DNA of 20,691 nt, from IMG/VR virus record IMGVR_UViG_3300025652_000702, positions 1-20,691 of that record. One strand, written 5' to 3'. The notes under the pieces are model-generated. The model searched no databases and was not told where the DNA came from. It saw only the letters and a program-made list of their open reading frames with translations. Source of the DNA: a virus. This document shows, in pieces, positions 3,727 to 20,691 of the stretch (positions within the stretch are counted from its first letter, which is position 1; every line of letters starts with the position of its first letter). The position numbers and the translations under genes are program-made.

Positions 3727-6015
3727 TTAAAATGCGCTAGGCTGTAGGCCCGTTAAGCTTTGAATGCGCTCATCTATTAAATTTCGATTATCTTGGTTTT
3801 GCGCCGCTGCGCCGCCTGCGCCGGGAAGCATGCCAATAGGATCTGGAGTTGGGCTGGCCTTGAGTGCGTTTGCAGTAGCGCCTGCGCCGTATGCTTTAAG
3901 TAGCGGCGTCGTTACAAATTGATCCATCAATGGAAGCCTGCCAGCAATTTGCACGGCGCTGCTTGACCCAAGCGCGGCGGCAATGCGCCCAATAAGGTTG
4001 AAAGCTGAGTTGGCTGAGTTTGAAGCGTTAACCTCGCCGCCAGTTGCGCGCGCTGCGACGTTTGCAAACTGCTCAATTAGATTACGCTCTTCTTGCGTAA
4101 ATAGCGCTTTAATGGCTGTCGGGTTAGCTTTCATCAGCTTTTTCCATTCAGCGCGCAATTTAACGCCAGAAAAAATATCGTCGCCCGATTTGGTTGCCGC
4201 GTCACCTTTGGAAAACAGATTTATAAACGCCTCTTGCCTAATTTGATTCCACTCAGAAGTGGGCAGCATTTTCTTTAACGTAGCAATGTCGTTAACGATT
4301 TGACCCGGCTTCATTAGCTTTGAATTATTAGCGCCAAGTATATAATTTGCAGCGCCCTCTGGAGTGACTTTTAAAACGCTTTCACCGTCTCTGACTGTCT
4401 TTTCAGTCAACGCTTTTAATATGCCACTTTTGCTTTTCCAAGTTGCAGCAAAATCAGCATAGTTTGAAACTGCGTTTGACCATGCTTTGACGGCTTCTTG
4501 ATCGCCAGATATTAAGCTGCGCTCAAAACTATTAGCCATTTGGTCATTAAATACTTGCTTGAGCTTACTTGCCGCAACGCCCTCTGAACCGCCATCAGCA
4601 ATTTGGTTTGCAACTTTTTGACGCCATGCAAACAGATCGCGTATGCTGCCGCCTTTTTCTGACATAATGTCAGTGAGGCTTGAGAGTAATACGCTTGTCT
4701 TTGGCATATTTGCCAGCTCAAAGTTTTCACTGATAGCATCGTTAGACGCTTTCAGCAGCGCGCTACCCGCGCCCTCATCTACGAATGCAGGGCCAGATTG
4801 CCTTGCCGTTCTGTAAAGATCGTCGGCGGTCTTTTTGGCCGCATCAAACTGAGTGTTAAGCGCATCGGAAACAGCCTGACCGCCTTGAAAGCCTTGCTCT
4901 CTGCTTATAACTGGGCTGTCGCCTGCAACCCGCTGTTGGATTGCGTCAACATTTTGTTGAATTGCTTGCTGCGCTGATGCAGCTCGATCATTAAGCATGC
5001 CAGCGGATGACTCTCCGTAAGCGCCACTGCGCACACTATCCTCAAACAATTGTTGGCCCTTGTCGCCAGTAACTTGACCCTTTGTTAGTGGCACTGGTAC
5101 GGGCAGTGTGCCTGCCTCAGCAATGCGTGCAGCCTCGTCAACGTCAACGCCTTGGCGAACTTGCTGGCTCATTGCCGCCGCCATTTCTTCACGCGCTTGT
5201 TCTGGGTCTAATCCAGCCTTGCGCATTTGCTCCGCGATTTCTGGCTTGATGTTGCCGTATTCATCCAGCACAGATTTAGGATTTGATTTAAACAATTTAG
5301 CAAGTTGACCAAGCATGCGTGTGCCTAGCTGCGCAACCGCTTGACCAGCAGCGCCGCCGCCAGCACCGTAAACTAAATCGCTAAATTTAAAGTCATCGTC
5401 AGCCATTTGCGAACTGCCAAGCTCAACTAGGCCAGCTTCAGTTGCGCCTATTGCTGCCGCTGCTTTATACCCAGTTGGCGCTTGTGAAAGCAGGCCGTAA
5501 CCCTTGGTCAGCCCTTTTGCCAAGCCAAGCGCGCCCGATATTTGCATCAAGTTGGTTACGTCCAAACCTTTTGGATTTGGGTAAAAGCGCGTAAATTGCT
5601 CTGTGGCTTTGCCGTCACGGTAAACTGGCGAGGCAATGACCAAATTGCCAAAACTGTCGGTTTGCGCTTCAGCGTTCGGAATAATGTTTTTAATACCATT
5701 TTCTAAGCGGGCAGGGTCGTTAGTTGTCGTAAGCAATGCCAGCATTGCAGTTGCCTTGCCTTTCGGCAGGCCAAGCCCAGCATTGTATGCCAGCGGTATG
5801 TTGGCCTCTTTTTGATTGCCCTTAAACCAATCGCCCGCGCGCTCAAGAATGCCACGCTCGTCAGTTTCTAACTCTTTAGGGTTGTTAATTTCGTTCAGCA
5901 TTTCCTCTATAGACAATAGGTTGTTGTTTTCTTGGTCAGACCACTTAACTACGCTATTGGACGTTTGAGCCTGCTGTTCTTTAATGCCCGCTAGCATTTC
6001 CTCTACAGTAGCCAT
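3727..6015 (-). CDS. Large ejection / internal virion protein (DNA-transfer type)
   Basis: This is a 762-aa Ala- and Gln-rich protein without transmembrane or enzymatic motifs that I recognise. Gly/Ala-rich stretches (about residues 155-200 and 215-240) could insert into membranes. A conserved-looking LTKGQVTGD motif lies near residue 315, and a long helical central region follows. Size, composition and position between the virion lysozyme and the portal fit proteins that are packaged in the head and ejected to help DNA cross the host envelope (compare P22 gp16/gp20). The N-terminus is odd: VEEMLAGI (4-11) and IEEMLNEI (36-43) flank residues 23-32, which are encoded by an exact 30-bp copy of part of the tail-hub gene. 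The stop of the upstream gene is 1 nt before this ATG. Confidence 0.7.
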   Translation of the reverse strand: MATVEEMLAGIKEQQAQTSNSVVKWSDQENNNLLSIEEMLNEINNPKELETDERGILERAGDWFKGNQKEANIPLAYNAGLGLPKGKATAMLALLTTTNDPARLENGIKNIIPNAEAQTDSFGNLVIASPVYRDGKATEQFTRFYPNPKGLDVTNLMQISGALGLAKGLTKGYGLLSQAPTGYKAAAAIGATEAGLVELGSSQMADDDFKFSDLVYGAGGGAAGQAVAQLGTRMLGQLAKLFKSNPKSVLDEYGNIKPEIAEQMRKAGLDPEQAREEMAAAMSQQVRQGVDVDEAARIAEAGTLPVPVPLTKGQVTGDKGQQLFEDSVRSGAYGESSAGMLNDRAASAQQAIQQNVDAIQQRVAGDSPVISREQGFQGGQAVSDALNTQFDAAKKTADDLYRTARQSGPAFVDEGAGSALLKASNDAISENFELANMPKTSVLLSSLTDIMSEKGGSIRDLFAWRQKVANQIADGGSEGVAASKLKQVFNDQMANSFERSLISGDQEAVKAWSNAVSNYADFAATWKSKSGILKALTEKTVRDGESVLKVTPEGAANYILGANNSKLMKPGQIVNDIATLKKMLPTSEWNQIRQEAFINLFSKGDAATKSGDDIFSGVKLRAEWKKLMKANPTAIKALFTQEERNLIEQFANVAARATGGEVNASNSANSAFNLIGRIAAALGSSSAVQIAGRLPLMDQFVTTPLLKAYGAGATANALKASPTPDPIGMLPGAGGAAAQNQDNRNLIDERIQSLTGLQPSAF
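5920..5949 (-). repeat. 30-bp in-frame repeat, copy in the ejection-protein gene
   Basis: Positions 5920-5949 are identical to 11999-12028. In both genes the segment is read in the same frame as exactly ten codons (VKWSDQENNN). Flanking bases differ on both sides. In the tail-hub protein the peptide lies in a normal-looking propeller segment, so the hub copy is the more likely source. Confidence 0.9.
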
Positions 6016-7560: not shown

Positions 7561-9381
7561 TTATCTCGCTCCAGCCATGAACGGTAGGGTCAGATAATTA
7601 AACAATCCGGGGTTTCGCGTTTGCGTTGTTGTGCTTGGCTGCGGGCTTCCCGTAATTGCTGCCATTGGATATTGAAGTGAATTGAAAGGCGCGTTAACGA
7701 AGTTGCCAAATTGGCCTTTTGCCGCGTCGATTAAGCTCTGGTTCATGCCCTGTTGCAGCAGCCCTTGGTTGGCTTGATCTTGCTGCAAAGTGCGGCCCAT
7801 GTTGAAGCCCTGCTGACCTAACCCGCCAAGCTGTGCGCCTGCGCCCATCCTCATGCTTTCTGCCTGCATCTGGTTGCCCATGTTAGCGTTTGTCATGGCG
7901 TTTTGAGCGCCCATGTTTAAGCTGCTGGCATTGTTTAGCGCGCCCTGATTATTTGCGGCGGCGGTGTTAGCGGCGCTTGCTCCGAATTGAGAGGCATTGT
8001 TGACGGCGCGCTGGTTTGCCAATTGGCTTTGCAGAGAATTGGCCGCTGAAGTAGTGGCCGCCTGCAAGTTTGCGTTTTGATTGGCTAAGTTTGCCTGCAT
8101 CGTGCTGTCAGCTCCGTAGCGCCGCTGATTGTTCTGTGCAGCTTGGTTTGCAAGGCTTGCAGTATTTGCAGCGCCAGCGCCGAATTGGCTGGCCTGATTG
8201 GTCATATTGGCATTTTGTAAAGCTGCAGTGTTTTGAGCTTGCGCACCGAATTGTGAGGCTTGATTGCCAGCCGTCATATTTGCTAATTGCTGCTGAAGGC
8301 TGTTGGCTGCCGTGTTAGTTTGGGCTTGCAGATTTGCGCCTTGGTTAGCCATGCCAGCCTGCATTCTACGATCAATGTCAGCTTGGGCAAGAGCTTGCGC
8401 ATTGGTAAAGCCCTGCTGACGCAATCCAGTGGCTGTCTTGGCTGCTTGCTCTGCAAACGCTCGATTAGTTTCGGCTTCTGCAATGCCCTGCCTTGAGCCG
8501 CCGAATGCGTTAGCTGCCGTGGCTGCTGCTGCGTCATTTGTTTGCTGGATTTGGCGATTTCGCTCTATGTCGCCCATAGCTAGATCAATGACGCCAGTAT
8601 CATACTGGTTTTGGTATCGTGACAAATCTGTGCCACCAACCTGACCAGCCGTCACATCCAGCTCGCGTATGTCTCTGACGCCAGCCGCACGTTCAGCATC
8701 ATAGCCTTGAGCAGCAGCTTGCGCTGCGTCATAGCCTTGTGAATTGGCCAATGCTGCTTGGTAATTTTGACCAGCAACTTGATCAGCAGTTATTGCATTT
8801 ACGCCAGCGATTTCACGCGGATTGTATCCCGTGCTTTGCATTTGTGCGGCTCGCATTTGCGCGGCTTGGCCTTGAGGCGCTTGAAAGTTTGTACCTTGCT
8901 GGGCTGTGTTTAGCGCGTTTGTGTATGCTTGCGCGCTTTGGTCAAATACGTTTTGGCCTTGTTGAAATTGCTGTTGAGGCTGCTGTGCTGGCAGACGCGC
9001 CTCCGCATTTGTGAAGCGCGGCTGACCTATCGCTGGCATGCCAGTTCCACGCCGTAAAAGCTCCATCGCGCCCTGCTGATCGCCTGCCATCATCATCTGA
9101 CGCGCCTGCTCAGAATACCCCGGCGCAAGTCCACCTTGGCCGTCCGTGCTGGCCGGACCTAAGCTGTCCTGATACGTTGATGACATTGGGTCGCCTAGAG
9201 ACATTTGCGGCTGGTCGTTCATGCCGGGATATGGCCGTATGGCCTGCACTCCTTGGCCCGTTGTGTCAAAGCCATCAGCACCGAATTGACGTTGAGGCTG
9301 CTGTGCTGGCAGACGCGCCTCCGCATTTGTGAAGCGCGGCTGCTGTGCTGGAATTGCGCCTTGGTTTGATGCACCACCCAT
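7561..9381 (-). CDS. Gln/Ala/Asn-rich internal virion (ejection) protein
   Basis: This 606-aa protein is dominated by Gln, Ala, Asn and Gly. The N-terminus carries a 17-residue duplication (14-30 and 120-136, QPRFTNAEARLPAQQPQ) that comes from a 52-bp exact DNA repeat. Residues 266-330 form a better-conserved-looking helical block (GDIERNRQIQQ to GLRQQGFTNAQ). Residues 357-387 and 446-475 are diverged copies of one unit containing SLQxQLAN and ASQFGA; a third ASQFGA is at 397-402. No catalytic motif is seen. Position in the internal-protein block suggests it is packaged in or ejected from the virion. A perfect AGGAGGT Shine-Dalgarno site precedes it by 7 nt, the strongest in the window, suggesting high expression. 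Confidence 0.65.
   Translation of the reverse strand: MGGASNQGAIPAQQPRFTNAEARLPAQQPQRQFGADGFDTTGQGVQAIRPYPGMNDQPQMSLGDPMSSTYQDSLGPASTDGQGGLAPGYSEQARQMMMAGDQQGAMELLRRGTGMPAIGQPRFTNAEARLPAQQPQQQFQQGQNVFDQSAQAYTNALNTAQQGTNFQAPQGQAAQMRAAQMQSTGYNPREIAGVNAITADQVAGQNYQAALANSQGYDAAQAAAQGYDAERAAGVRDIRELDVTAGQVGGTDLSRYQNQYDTGVIDLAMGDIERNRQIQQTNDAAAATAANAFGGSRQGIAEAETNRAFAEQAAKTATGLRQQGFTNAQALAQADIDRRMQAGMANQGANLQAQTNTAANSLQQQLANMTAGNQASQFGAQAQNTAALQNANMTNQASQFGAGAANTASLANQAAQNNQRRYGADSTMQANLANQNANLQAATTSAANSLQSQLANQRAVNNASQFGASAANTAAANNQGALNNASSLNMGAQNAMTNANMGNQMQAESMRMGAGAQLGGLGQQGFNMGRTLQQDQANQGLLQQGMNQSLIDAAKGQFGNFVNAPFNSLQYPMAAITGSPQPSTTTQTRNPGLFNYLTLPFMAGAR
8973..9024 (-). repeat. 52-bp exact direct repeat, copy 1
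   Basis: Identical to 9291-9342 over 52 bp, with different bases on both sides. It encodes the second copy (residues 120-136) of the peptide containing RFTNAEARLPAQQ in the 606-aa protein. Exact DNA identity implies a recent duplication or continuing gene conversion. Confidence 0.95.
9291..9342 (-). repeat. 52-bp exact direct repeat, copy 2
   Basis: Partner of 8973-9024. It encodes residues 14-30 of the 606-aa protein. The copies start 318 bp (106 codons) apart, so recombination between them would remove or add the segment without a frameshift. Confidence 0.95.
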
Positions 9382-11147: not shown

Positions 11148-12619
11148 CTGCGCCCACCTGTTCGAGCATCAAGCCGCATTATGCCGACACGCCAATCAGA
11201 GCCAGCGCCCTCTACGCGCATTCTGACTTGCCTACCTTGGAAACGGACGCTTGTAGGATTGGTCATTGTAAACGGACCGTGCGTTGTTTCGCTCGCATTT
11301 GGGTAAAGTCGTGTTTTGAACTTGGCTGTGACGCTGCCTTGCGTTTTTTCGTCGGGCAACAGCTCCACGACGTTCATCACATTGTCGCCGTTGCCAATGC
11401 TGATTGGCCCTGTTTCGGCGTGTGGTGTAACGCCAGCGTAAGACGTTCCAACCTCATGCTCATAAAGAATGCCAGAAGCGTCAAAATACATTGGATATCT
11501 AAACGTGCCTTTATCGAGGCCGCTAACCCTATCTAACGTGCCAGTTGTCCATATATTTTCAGCATAATCAAAACTGACGTAACGGTCATTTTCCATTGAG
11601 TTAGCGCTGGGATAAAACCAAGTGATTTCTGACCACTCAGAGTTTACAACAGCGTTAACCTTTGTGATTTGGTCTTTGTTAATGTCAGAGAAAACGTAAT
11701 CGCCAACTTCACAAGGTATCGTCTGCACATTGCCGCCCGTGTACATATGAAAAGATCTATGGCCCATCCAAAACACGCCCGCATCAACGGTTGCCGCTGC
11801 CTTCGCGCCGACCATGCCGCACGACGTGCCAACGCGCTCAATGCCGTAAACAAATGGTGGACCTTGGTAGGTCATCGCGTGCGCATCTTCCGTTGTAAGG
11901 ATAAGCGCTTGGCCGCGTGTCCGTAAACCAGCTAGAATAACGCCGTTGGTCTGAATGCGTAAATCACCAGCTTGATTGGTCGCTGCCGCCGTCCACAAGT
12001 TGTTGTTTTCTTGGTCAGACCACTTAACGGTGCGCGGATCGCCGCCAGCGCCAAAGCAGACAACAAATCGCTCCTCAGTCACCATCATAGCGTTACAGTT
12101 TGTCGGCGCGTTTGACAGCAGTGCGGCGTCAGTTGAAGCGTTTAACTGCCACTCATAGAGTTTGCCGTCGTCCGAATGCATTGCTAGAAGATATTCGCCC
12201 CAATTTTCCAAGCTCCAAGTCGTAGCTGGCAAAACCGTTTCAGCATCTGCTCTAGGTGTCCCGTAAGTTTCATTGCCGTATACGCCAGAGCCGTAAGCGG
12301 TGTTAATTGTTGCATTGACGCGGCCTATTGTAAACGTATTCGGCGTTATGTCAGAAGTTGTGCCGCCTGCGTTTATGACGTGCAATTTGTTGTGCGTGCC
12401 AGCGGCAATAAAACGATCAGTACCATTATCTTCCCACGCCATGACAGAGCGCGGAACGCCTGACAGATTAACGCTTTGGCGCTGACGCCAGCCGCCAATT
12501 GGACGCAATGCGCCCTCGTGCCAGCGAACAAGATTAACATCACGCCAGCGATTGGCAGACATCATGTCCGTTCCGTTTCTATGCGCGCCGAGCGGTATAT
12601 TTAAAGGTATGAGCGGCAT
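11144..12619 (-). CDS. Tail-hub beta-propeller protein (P22 gp10-like)
   Basis: This 491-aa beta-rich protein has the length and layout of P22 gp10-type packaged-DNA stabilisation or hub proteins, which sit below the portal and connect to the tail fibres or needle. It has an N-terminal MPLIPLNIPLG segment, a WRDVNLVRWHEGALRPIGGW stretch (25-44), a Gly/Tyr-rich AYGSGVYGNETYG loop (109-120), propeller-like FVVCFGAGGDPRTVKWSD (185-202), and a C-terminal VRFQGRQVRMRVEG / DWRVGIMRLDA block ending in GGRR (457-491). Residues 198-207 are encoded by the 30-bp segment repeated in the 762-aa gene. An AGGA site overlapping the preceding stop supports the start at 12619. Confidence 0.72.
   Translation of the reverse strand: MPLIPLNIPLGAHRNGTDMMSANRWRDVNLVRWHEGALRPIGGWRQRQSVNLSGVPRSVMAWEDNGTDRFIAAGTHNKLHVINAGGTTSDITPNTFTIGRVNATINTAYGSGVYGNETYGTPRADAETVLPATTWSLENWGEYLLAMHSDDGKLYEWQLNASTDAALLSNAPTNCNAMMVTEERFVVCFGAGGDPRTVKWSDQENNNLWTAAATNQAGDLRIQTNGVILAGLRTRGQALILTTEDAHAMTYQGPPFVYGIERVGTSCGMVGAKAAATVDAGVFWMGHRSFHMYTGGNVQTIPCEVGDYVFSDINKDQITKVNAVVNSEWSEITWFYPSANSMENDRYVSFDYAENIWTTGTLDRVSGLDKGTFRYPMYFDASGILYEHEVGTSYAGVTPHAETGPISIGNGDNVMNVVELLPDEKTQGSVTAKFKTRLYPNASETTHGPFTMTNPTSVRFQGRQVRMRVEGAGSDWRVGIMRLDARTGGRR
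11999..12028 (-). repeat. 30-bp in-frame repeat, copy in the tail-hub gene
   Basis: Identical to 5920-5949 and read in the same frame as ten codons. Here the peptide precedes LWTAA in a propeller strand-turn segment typical of this kind of protein, which suggests that this is the ancestral copy. Confidence 0.9.
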
Positions 12620-18349: not shown

Positions 18350-18970
18350 TTAGAAAGAAGTGACGCGCATGCGAAGCCCAGAGCCAGCATTTCGCGTATT
18401 GTCTGAGGAAGTTTGCATTGAAGCGAGCGCAGCGGCGTACATTGCCCCCCAAACTTGCAGGCGCGCGTCGTCAAGCAAATATGGCGCTGCCTGCATCAAC
18501 GCGCCGTATAGGTAAATGTCAGGCGCGTCTGCCAGCACGAAGTTTGATGTATTGCTGTCACTTAGCGCGGGTATCTTAGCGTAATACGTGAGCTGCGCTG
18601 TATAATCGCCGTCTGGCGTTGGATAAAGCTCGATTTGGTCGCCAATGTGGGCGTATTGCTTGGGGCGTCCTGACGTATTGCCGCTACTTTCGCGCTGAGT
18701 TAGCATTGCGTCTAAGCTGACCAGCTCAAGGCGATGCGTTGTGCCACTTGTGATGCCAAGGCGCACAGTTTCAAGATGATCGCCGGGAAGTTGTACAAAG
18801 CGCGTGTCAAGCGTTGCATTATCGCGGTCAATCATTTGCAGATGCCGCAAATCCCGATTTAATGCCGCCTCAGTCAACGCAATGAAATCGGGAATAACGG
18901 AAGTTAAATCATCCCGATTGAGCCAGCTCGCTATAGCGGTTTTTAACTCTGCGTAAGTGGTGATGCTCAT
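18350..18970 (-). CDS. Head-tail adaptor protein (SU10-adaptor / P22 gp4-like)
   Basis: The protein begins MSITTYAELKTAIASWLNRD followed by DFIALTEAALNRDLR (28-42). This amphipathic helical start is characteristic of the phage adaptor family that docks under the portal and joins it to the tail. The central part (about 55-130) is beta-rich with VQLPGDHLETVRL and HIGDQIELYPTP, and the C-terminal part is helical. The length of 206 aa is typical. GAGGT lies 9 nt before the ATG. The gene stands at the head of the tail block, far from the portal with which it should interact. Confidence 0.75.
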   Translation of the reverse strand: MSITTYAELKTAIASWLNRDDLTSVIPDFIALTEAALNRDLRHLQMIDRDNATLDTRFVQLPGDHLETVRLGITSGTTHRLELVSLDAMLTQRESSGNTSGRPKQYAHIGDQIELYPTPDGDYTAQLTYYAKIPALSDSNTSNFVLADAPDIYLYGALMQAAPYLLDDARLQVWGAMYAAALASMQTSSDNTRNAGSGLRMRVTSF

Positions 18971-18998
18971 TGAAAAGACCTCAACAAATGTTTATATT
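18970..18998 (+). promoter_or_regulatory. Sigma70-like promoter for the plus-strand small gene
   Basis: TTGAAA (18970-18975) and TATATT (18993-18998) each match the consensus at five of six positions and are spaced exactly 17 nt apart. Transcription would start near 19005, giving a short leader with GGGAG (19007-19011) 7 nt before the ATG at 19019. The -35 box overlaps the start codon of the divergent adaptor gene, so the two starts may interfere. Confidence 0.5.
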
Positions 18999-19018
18999 GC
19001 AGGGATGGGAGAAAAATT

Positions 19019-19207
19019 ATGGAAAATCCGTTTGACTTGAATGACCCGCAAGCAATGCGAGAAAATATTGTGCTGCGTGCAATCCATTTGGACAGAAGTG
19101 ACTTAAAGCAACTTGAGGCGTTTGATGCTATGGTCTGTGGCGCACTTGGCCTTGATGCTGAAGATGTACCGCCGCAATTCATCTTTGACTCTCTCTCAGT
19201 TGCATAA
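19019..19207 (+). CDS. Antisense-oriented small acidic protein (moron-like)
   Basis: This is the only convincing plus-strand gene. It encodes 62 aa beginning MENPFDLNDPQAMREN, with 12 acidic and 4 basic residues and amphipathic helices (REN to DAMVCGALGL). There is no signal or membrane segment. Its own promoter-like boxes and a GGGAG ribosome-binding site 7 nt upstream favour a real gene. It overlaps the end of the convergent large gene by 29 nt and fills the gap before the adaptor gene. A minus-strand frame of 71 codons (19182-18967), joined to both neighbours by ATGA, competes for the same DNA but is Ser-rich and rich in otherwise uncommon codons. Size, acidity and independent expression recall phage cargo genes (host-takeover or anti-defence), but no function can be read from the sequence. 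Confidence 0.6.
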   Translation: MENPFDLNDPQAMRENIVLRAIHLDRSDLKQLEAFDAMVCGALGLDAEDVPPQFIFDSLSVA

Positions 19208-20691
19208 GGTAATCGACTATTTCTTGAGTAAATTCTTGCCCCGGAAGTTGAGTTTTCATCGCATAAGTCTTGTGGCTATCTGAAAAAGGCTGACCTTTTT
19301 TAGTAACTTTATTTTTCATGTCATTGTACGTGTCTCGGAACAGCAAGCCCTGATGCACGCGAGGAATGCCGCCAAGATATTTACCTTTAAGCTGCGTGTT
19401 GTAAGTTGAATGCGGTACTGTGGGCGTTTTTAATAAACCTGAGCTTGTGTCAATTTTTCCTAATGCCATGCCAGCCGTGCCAGATGGGCTTTGAATTTGA
19501 TCAGGGTCAGTTACGGCAAGCCTCATTTTTGCTGGACTAGGAAAGCCCATTTTTTGAGCTGGAGACGTGTCCATAAGGCGTATAAACGCTTTACGAATAT
19601 CTGGAGCTGCTTTTTCAACGTAATCGCGTAAATCTGGATTAAGTATTCCCGGCCAGTTAGGGTCAACGGATTTTTTCATAGCAGCATCAAACAACTTGGC
19701 GTCTTTTTTCTTGATTGGAGCCAGTTTTACCATTTCGGCCATCGTTGCGGCAGCGAAGTTGGTAAAGTCTACAGCATCAGGAGCCATGCCAATTGTAACG
19801 CCAACAACATCTTTTTCTTCTTTGTTGGCTTTTTTTATAGCCTCGTCTCTTAACCGCTTAACAATGTTTTGAGCTGATGCCCAAATTGAGCCGTCTGCTT
19901 GTGCCGCCGGGCCAACCATAAAATCAGCGCCTGCCTCGGTCACAACTGACTTGTCAAACTTCATATCGTCAATGCCAGTTATCTCAAGACCGCCGCTTGA
20001 TTTATCGCCAAAGAACGGCAAGGCAATTTTACCAAGTAAGCCTTCAATGTCAGCCTCTTTTCTTGGAAGATTTACTCCAAGATCAGTGCGCTGCACTTCC
20101 ACCTCTGAAAGAGGTTTATCCATTTTTGTTTTTTGGTAACCGAGCGGATCAAGCTCTGACTTTGTCATCTTTGAAGCATCACTTGCCAACAATCCCGCCG
20201 CACCTGCCGACTTGCTCGCGTTTGCGTAAAAATCTTCCAACTCTGGGCGTGCGAAACCTTGCAGAATAGAGTTGGCACTGCGCGGATCTAAAATCTGGCG
20301 CTGTGTAGCTGTCTCCAGAGCGGCCTGCACGCGCTGAATAGGAGCGGCATTTATGTTGGCAGGGTCTACGCCGTTTTGCGTCAGTATGTCAGCCAATTCG
20401 GGCTTTGCGCGAGCGTGCTGGCTAAGTACAAGCGCGCCGACGCTGGCGTTGGCGTTTGCTGTTGTAACAGGTGCAGAAGCAGATGGCCGCACCGCGTTTA
20501 CAGCAGCGCCACCGCCGAGCATAGCCGTGCCAGCCGTTTGCATGGCCGCACCCAGCATTTCGTCGTCTGTCAGCAAACCTTTTGCAGCCATGCCGGGATT
20601 TTCAACGCCGCCGACGAGCGCGCCGAGCGCATCCGTGATATAATCCTTAAACCGTGTTTGCAGCTTGCCACCTTTGAAGGCGTCGAGCAGG
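19179..20691 (-). CDS. C-terminal 503 residues of a very large phage protein of unknown function
   Basis: The frame is open to the right edge (LLDAFKGGKLQTRFKDYITD precedes the internal ATG at 20591), so the visible part is only the C-terminus and the true start lies outside. An Ala-rich, probably disordered stretch is followed by a beta/alpha domain with FMVGPAAQADGSIWASAQ, MAPDAVDFTNFAAATMAEM, DPNWPGIL, DIRKAFIRLMDT, GFPSPAKMRLAVTD and STYNTQLKGKYLGG. I associate this arrangement with conserved C-terminal domains of giant phage 'polyvalent' or internal proteins, but no enzymatic site is recognisable. It may be a virion protein injected with the DNA. The end overlaps the plus-strand gene by 29 nt. 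Confidence 0.65.
   Translation of the reverse strand, partial: LLDAFKGGKLQTRFKDYITDALGALVGGVENPGMAAKGLLTDDEMLGAAMQTAGTAMLGGGAAVNAVRPSASAPVTTANANASVGALVLSQHARAKPELADILTQNGVDPANINAAPIQRVQAALETATQRQILDPRSANSILQGFARPELEDFYANASKSAGAAGLLASDASKMTKSELDPLGYQKTKMDKPLSEVEVQRTDLGVNLPRKEADIEGLLGKIALPFFGDKSSGGLEITGIDDMKFDKSVVTEAGADFMVGPAAQADGSIWASAQNIVKRLRDEAIKKANKEEKDVVGVTIGMAPDAVDFTNFAAATMAEMVKLAPIKKKDAKLFDAAMKKSVDPNWPGILNPDLRDYVEKAAPDIRKAFIRLMDTSPAQKMGFPSPAKMRLAVTDPDQIQSPSGTAGMALGKIDTSSGLLKTPTVPHSTYNTQLKGKYLGGIPRVHQGLLFRDTYNDMKNKVTKKGQPFSDSHKTYAMKTQLPGQEFTQEIVDYLMQLRESQR
19283..19300 (+). terminator. Possible terminator hairpin after the plus-strand small gene
   Basis: AAAAAGG (19283-19289) and CCTTTTT (19294-19300) form a 7-bp stem with a CTGA loop, followed by one more T. 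It lies 75 nt downstream of the plus-strand stop codon, inside the large minus-strand gene. The stem has only two G-C pairs, so it would be a weak terminator; it may simply be coding sequence. Confidence 0.25.

Follow-up and report, generated by a model that had tools for sequence, protein, structure and literature searches.

A conserved antisense small gene exchanged together with the C-terminal domain of its neighbour in the structural region of marine phages

Phage morons are accessory genes that carry their own promoter and lie between other genes of the phage. A Salmonella prophage gene that is antisense to lytic genes and has its own promoter has been read as a candidate moron (PMC7067206). 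The gene described here resembles this class in its small size, its apparent sigma70-type promoter, its orientation against the late operon and its patchy presence among relatives, but differs in lacking both a terminator and a composition shift and in being tied to, and exchanged with, the C-terminal domain encoded by its neighbour. In polymorphic toxin/immunity cassettes, as here, a C-terminal domain and an adjacent small gene are replaced jointly while the N-terminal part and the flanks stay; unlike in those cassettes, the present small gene lies on the opposite strand, has its own putative promoter and is dispensable, with the domain still conserved in its absence and not known to have toxin activity. 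Relatives of this domain are also found as parts of very large multidomain phage proteins, as in the polyvalent phage proteins (PMC5512222), whereas the protein studied here has just 470 residues and no named polyvalent domain was recognised in it by Pfam, PHROGs or NCBIfam.

The window, which is the whole 20,691-nucleotide stretch of viral DNA analysed (IMG/VR record IMGVR_UViG_3300025652_000702), carries all of its other plausible genes on the minus strand. A preliminary description had picked out in it an acidic plus-strand frame of 62 codons, with GGGAG 7 nt before the ATG and TTGAAA-17 nt-TATATT upstream, and every one of these elements was located as claimed (Table 1). The encoded protein has a pI of 4.06 and a net charge of -8. 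A direct search with it found one near-identical contig only. Of 80 related contigs retrieved, 20 were inspected at the junction that precedes the next gene (PHROG 2941), and in L015 this junction holds a 48-aa antisense ORF that aligns with the small protein of the window. The family, here called family A, was widened first via contigs encoding proteins related to the large gene's C-terminal domain, then by profile search, giving homologues of 45-62 aa in 46 IMG/VR contigs, a count that rests on motif-based scans and in which several loci are near-copies. Its members have the motif R-E-x-I-x-L-K/R-A ... L-x-x-L/F-D-x-x-V/I-C-x-x-L/V-x-I/L. The collection of annotated phage genomes contained no family A relative, only distant relatives of the C-terminal domain, and none of 43 pattern matches in bacterial genome contigs was a relative; hosts are identified for the group of Roseobacter phage CRP-902 only.

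Table 1. Positions of the features of the locus, numbered from the first nucleotide of the window.
Feature	Position	Strand	Remarks
Next structural gene	18350-18970	-	PHROG 2941, virion structural/tail tubular protein A-like, E 9.8e-54
Minus-strand ORF, 71 codons	18967-19182	-	not a gene; stops in the antisense register of relatives
Putative sigma70-type promoter	18970-18998	+	TTGAAA (18970-18975), 17-nt spacer, TATATT (18993-18998); recurs in relatives
Exchangeable cassette (domain, small gene and promoter)	18971-20218	.	bounds from L002 versus empty-site L004, and L003
Ribosome-binding site GGGAG	19007-19011	+	7 nt before the ATG; GGGAG/AGGAG-type upstream of homologues
Small gene (family A)	19019-19207	+	ATG to TAA; 62 aa, acidic, predicted two-helix; homologues in 46 IMG/VR contigs
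3'-end overlap of small gene and large gene	19179-19207	.	29 nt; 17 nt in all other lineages
Large gene	19179-20591	-	470 aa; N-terminal part common to L003 and L004, both without the cassette
C-terminal domain, residues 140-470 of the large gene	19182-20174	-	convergent partner; homologues and AlphaFold model

Purifying selection was found in the Ka/Ks comparison of the plus frame that had been suggested as a check. Across the 31 distinct homologous nucleotide sequences of family A, pS was 0.739 and pN 0.263 in divergent pairs (pN/pS 0.36) and 0.0995 and 0.0152 in close pairs (pN/pS about 0.15), and the differences fell 0.27/0.13/0.52 over the three codon positions. On these sequence comparisons the small gene is a genuine, previously unrecognised protein-coding gene under purifying selection; its homology, synonymous bias and recurring promoter architecture bear out the earlier claim that it is an independent gene. 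Both frames are open in the window, which would allow the small ORF to be a product of chance and the 71-codon minus-strand frame to be the real gene, but this reading is refuted and keeps practically no probability: homologues, plus-frame pN/pS and codon-position differences place the small ORF above chance (the promoter match alone being at chance level), and the register of the minus frame is interrupted by stops in 28 of the 31 relatives. The preliminary description had named conservation of that minus frame, with synonymous bias, as an observation that would speak against the small gene; the frame is not conserved and was rejected as a gene.

The putative promoter of the window scores 10/12, and its -35 element begins at the start codon of the opposite-strand tail gene, so that a short stretch serves both strands. 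With 3 promoter-type sites found against 2.4 expected in a region of this size, the match alone is at chance level. In most family A lineages two sigma70-type elements spaced by 17 nt lie some 20-29 nt upstream of the ATG and are followed by GGGAG or AGGAG, as in TTGCCA-17-TATAAT (L092, L090), TTGCAA-17-TAACAT (L147) and TTGTGG-17-TATAAT (L112), with weak matches in L118, L149 and L183; the Fisher combined p for the 17-nt-spaced promoters is 3.5e-7 across 14 lineages whose independence is incomplete. This retention in most lineages agrees with the promoter proposed earlier, and it is strongly indicated that the host sigma70 polymerase transcribes the small gene from this promoter, without dependence on the late operon. 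No intrinsic terminator meeting a perfect-stem criterion was found within 200 nt in 13 of the 14 lineages, and a looser scan gave a single weak site (19280-19303), not above chance. No T7-type RNA polymerase was matched in seven long relatives, though the positive controls gave no match either, and no integrase was found in seven long related records, so expression during lysogeny is not evident.

The small gene lies tail-to-tail with the C-terminal domain of about 330 aa in all 44 family A contigs that show both sides (46 contigs in total), and the overlap of the two genes is constant at 17 nt outside the lineage of the window, where it is 29 nt. That the transcript is antisense to the end of the large gene, as the preliminary description had proposed, must follow from this overlap of 3' ends if the gene is transcribed as predicted. 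Family A and the domain occur at two places in the genome: most contigs have them ahead of the tail-tube gene, whereas L118, L132, L145 and L147 have them ahead of the portal gene; the small gene also stands before the portal gene in L195 and L196, in which the full domain is not visible. Records related to the gene next to the small gene are annotated as tail tubular protein A, and the large protein is probably virion-associated, judging from the position of its gene and from relatives annotated as structural. By sequence, its C-terminal domain matches no known family in Pfam, PHROGs, NCBIfam, PADLOC or PDB.

Two repeats lie elsewhere in the window. An exact 30-nt repeat (5920-5949 and 11999-12028) occurs in two unrelated genes, in the start region of a 762-aa gene and in a PHROG 3287 gene, encodes VKWSDQENNN in both and is a possible trace of recombination. 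A 59-nt direct repeat (8966-9024 and 9284-9342, 97% identity) lies within a 606-aa Gln/Ala-rich gene.

The limits of the exchanged segment were given by L002, a near-copy of the window locus (about 99%), and its relative L004. Similarity between the two ends inside the large gene (at about 20218 of the window) and returns at the start codon of the tail gene (about 18972), and L004 has only 65 nt between these points, which represents an empty site. The DNA of the family A contig L113 and that of the family C contig L216 match at 92-97% identity until 38 nt short of the matched domain, match again once the first 9 nt of the small gene are reached, and cannot be aligned in between; the 75 nt before the ATG of the small gene are identical, so that different pairs of domain and small gene have the same putative promoter. 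Between L099 and L100, identity is 96% for the small gene and 99% for the domain, but only 54% for the tail gene beside them. In Mantel tests, distances between small genes correlate with those between domains (rho 0.72, p 0.001; without the window 0.55, p 0.01) far more strongly than with those between the adjacent tail genes (rho 0.29; 0.16 without the window), in a comparison made without L092, whose tail gene is frame-broken. In that contig the match to the tail-tube gene (L092:5202-5818) does not span a whole number of codons, probably due to a frameshift in the contig.

At the level of sequence, the small gene and the C-terminal domain are thus inherited and exchanged together as a unit, and we hold with high confidence that the locus comprises a real convergent antisense gene that is exchanged with the C-terminal domain of its neighbour. 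The earlier reading of the small gene as a moron stands as regards its own promoter and its presence or absence at the same junction, but the gene is not free-standing, being half of a convergent two-gene cassette. Two hallmarks of morons, an own terminator and an odd base composition, were not found for it: its GC content of 0.455 is at the 27th percentile of the window and that of the cassette, 0.439, at the 8th. A lone insertion between structural genes was rejected as a description of the cassette, in which domain and small gene are replaced jointly.

Presence and absence at the site, which the preliminary description had proposed to examine, vary among relatives at the same junction. The cassette is absent there from the close relatives L003 and L004, and many contigs have the C-terminal domain without any small gene. 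Conservation of the domain is not reduced where the small gene is missing (changes at 7 of 82 invariant sites; control sets, 4.6 +/- 3.2), and three gains or losses of the small gene are needed on the domain tree. L195 presents the opposite case, an intact small gene beside a domain cut down to a remnant of roughly a dozen codons; this small gene differs from that of L132 by 16 nucleotide and 3 amino acid changes, a mostly synonymous divergence. Since the domain is equally conserved without the small gene and L195 retains only a remnant of the domain, the small gene is accessory and is unlikely to encode an obligatory antitoxin.

The replaced part of L195 (L195:1388-2284) has another ORF in place of the domain, with the remnant NVLEGILDYLSNQ beside the intact small gene, and represents a frozen recombination event. 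In contigs without the antisense gene (L018, L021, L042, L219, L224 and L233) the junction often holds short, strongly basic genes on the same strand, such as MGLYSNIAAKKKRIAAGSGEKMRK.

Distant relatives of the domain are also followed by small convergent genes. In Roseobacter phage CRP-902 (OQ401624) gp72 contains a distant form of the domain (about 26% identity), and gp71, which defines family C, encodes an acidic protein of 77 aa on the opposite strand, convergent and 2 nt behind gp72; both are annotated as hypothetical. Among relatives of gp72 a gp71-like gene is present in some and cleanly missing in others. The arrangement of domain and small acidic gene is the same as in the window, but homology between family A and family C is only suggestive from the profile comparison (gp71 against family A, hhalign E 0.0076, probability 5%). 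Family B, of 55 aa, lies convergent behind domains that are about 25% identical and showed no relatedness to the other small families by sequence comparison. Synonymous bias places family C (pS 0.515, pN 0.063) and family B (pS 0.394, pN 0.123) under purifying selection too, and all three families are acidic (pI 4.05-4.43). In the family B loci L201-L213 a TATACT lies about 10 nt upstream of the ATG and no Shine-Dalgarno sequence stands out, suggestive of leaderless transcription.

The structure prediction suggested earlier gave, with AlphaFold, a two-helix model of the small protein (helices 10-23 and 29-43 and a short third, mean pLDDT 73), but the fold search with this model found no structural match in PDB. 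The C-terminal domain was modelled with a mean pLDDT of 87.6, and its fold matches are uncharacterised and very large phage proteins (1231-1489 aa), including one named structural protein, one PcfJ-like protein and one with a NAT domain. The best 21 PDB matches of the domain model were all YTH domains, with a sub-threshold best E of 0.096 and a TM-score by query of about 0.24; the domain may have a diverged modified-base-binding (YTH-like) fold, which we regard as no more than a lead. No toxin fold was found for it, and no literature was found on YTH domains in polyvalent phage proteins.

The reading we favour is that the small acidic two-helix protein is an accessory partner dedicated to the C-terminal domain with which it is swapped. 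Produced under control of the sigma70 promoter, it would bind and modulate the domain so that the latter remains inactive, or stable, within the producing cell; the two would hence be traded as a matched pair, like toxin-immunity cassettes, in phages that can manage without the small gene. We infer such a modulator tentatively, at somewhat less than even probability, and rank it above an independent host-directed moron because the co-exchange is exact and small genes recur behind distant domains; against it, physical overlap alone could cause the domain and the small gene to hitchhike. A moron-like cargo directed at the host, with RNA polymerase or a defence system as conceivable targets, and linked to the domain through the 3' overlap and recombination only, is a less probable but serious alternative, which gains from the dispensability of the small gene and from L195, where the gene is kept with mostly synonymous divergence from L132 after loss of the domain. 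Its own sigma70-type promoter opposing the late operon, its presence or absence at one junction and the precedent of the Salmonella prophage antisense gene (PMC7067206) fit this alternative as well, whereas the small gene was never found away from the domain or a domain remnant, domain relatives of about 25% identity have convergent small acidic genes of their own, an arrangement not expected from hitchhiking, and terminator and unusual composition are absent. The anti-defence or host-modifying role put forward earlier found no support beyond analogy, the small protein having no match in Pfam, PHROGs, PADLOC or PDB sequences.

Regulation by the transcript itself, which would enter the 3' part of the large gene for want of a terminator and lower its expression, leaving the protein secondary, is improbable: the convergent overlap in every case agrees with it, as does the failure to find an intrinsic terminator in the first 200 nt for 13 of 14 lineages, but strong purifying selection on amino acids and the conserved ribosome-binding site show that the protein matters. 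Slightly more improbable still is a strict toxin-antitoxin or immunity pair, in which the domain would poison the cell that makes it and the small protein would be its obligatory antitoxin; exchange as a unit and a small, acidic partner are reminiscent of polymorphic toxin-immunity cassettes, but the domain is just as conserved in many phages that lack the small gene, and no toxin fold was found. Beyond the accessory partnership favoured here, marine phages might have polymorphic cassettes in which a virion-delivered effector domain and a matched antisense modulator driven by a host promoter are swapped as a unit, with at least three modulator families and an effector that may read modified nucleic acid, a speculative extension that we consider unlikely on balance.

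Small genes antisense to structural operons are easily missed in phage annotation, and the one described here is conserved and traded with the domain of its neighbour. The domain and the small protein form a concrete, testable pair in marine phages, and suggest that proteins of the structural region may carry exchangeable C-terminal payloads with antisense-encoded partners.
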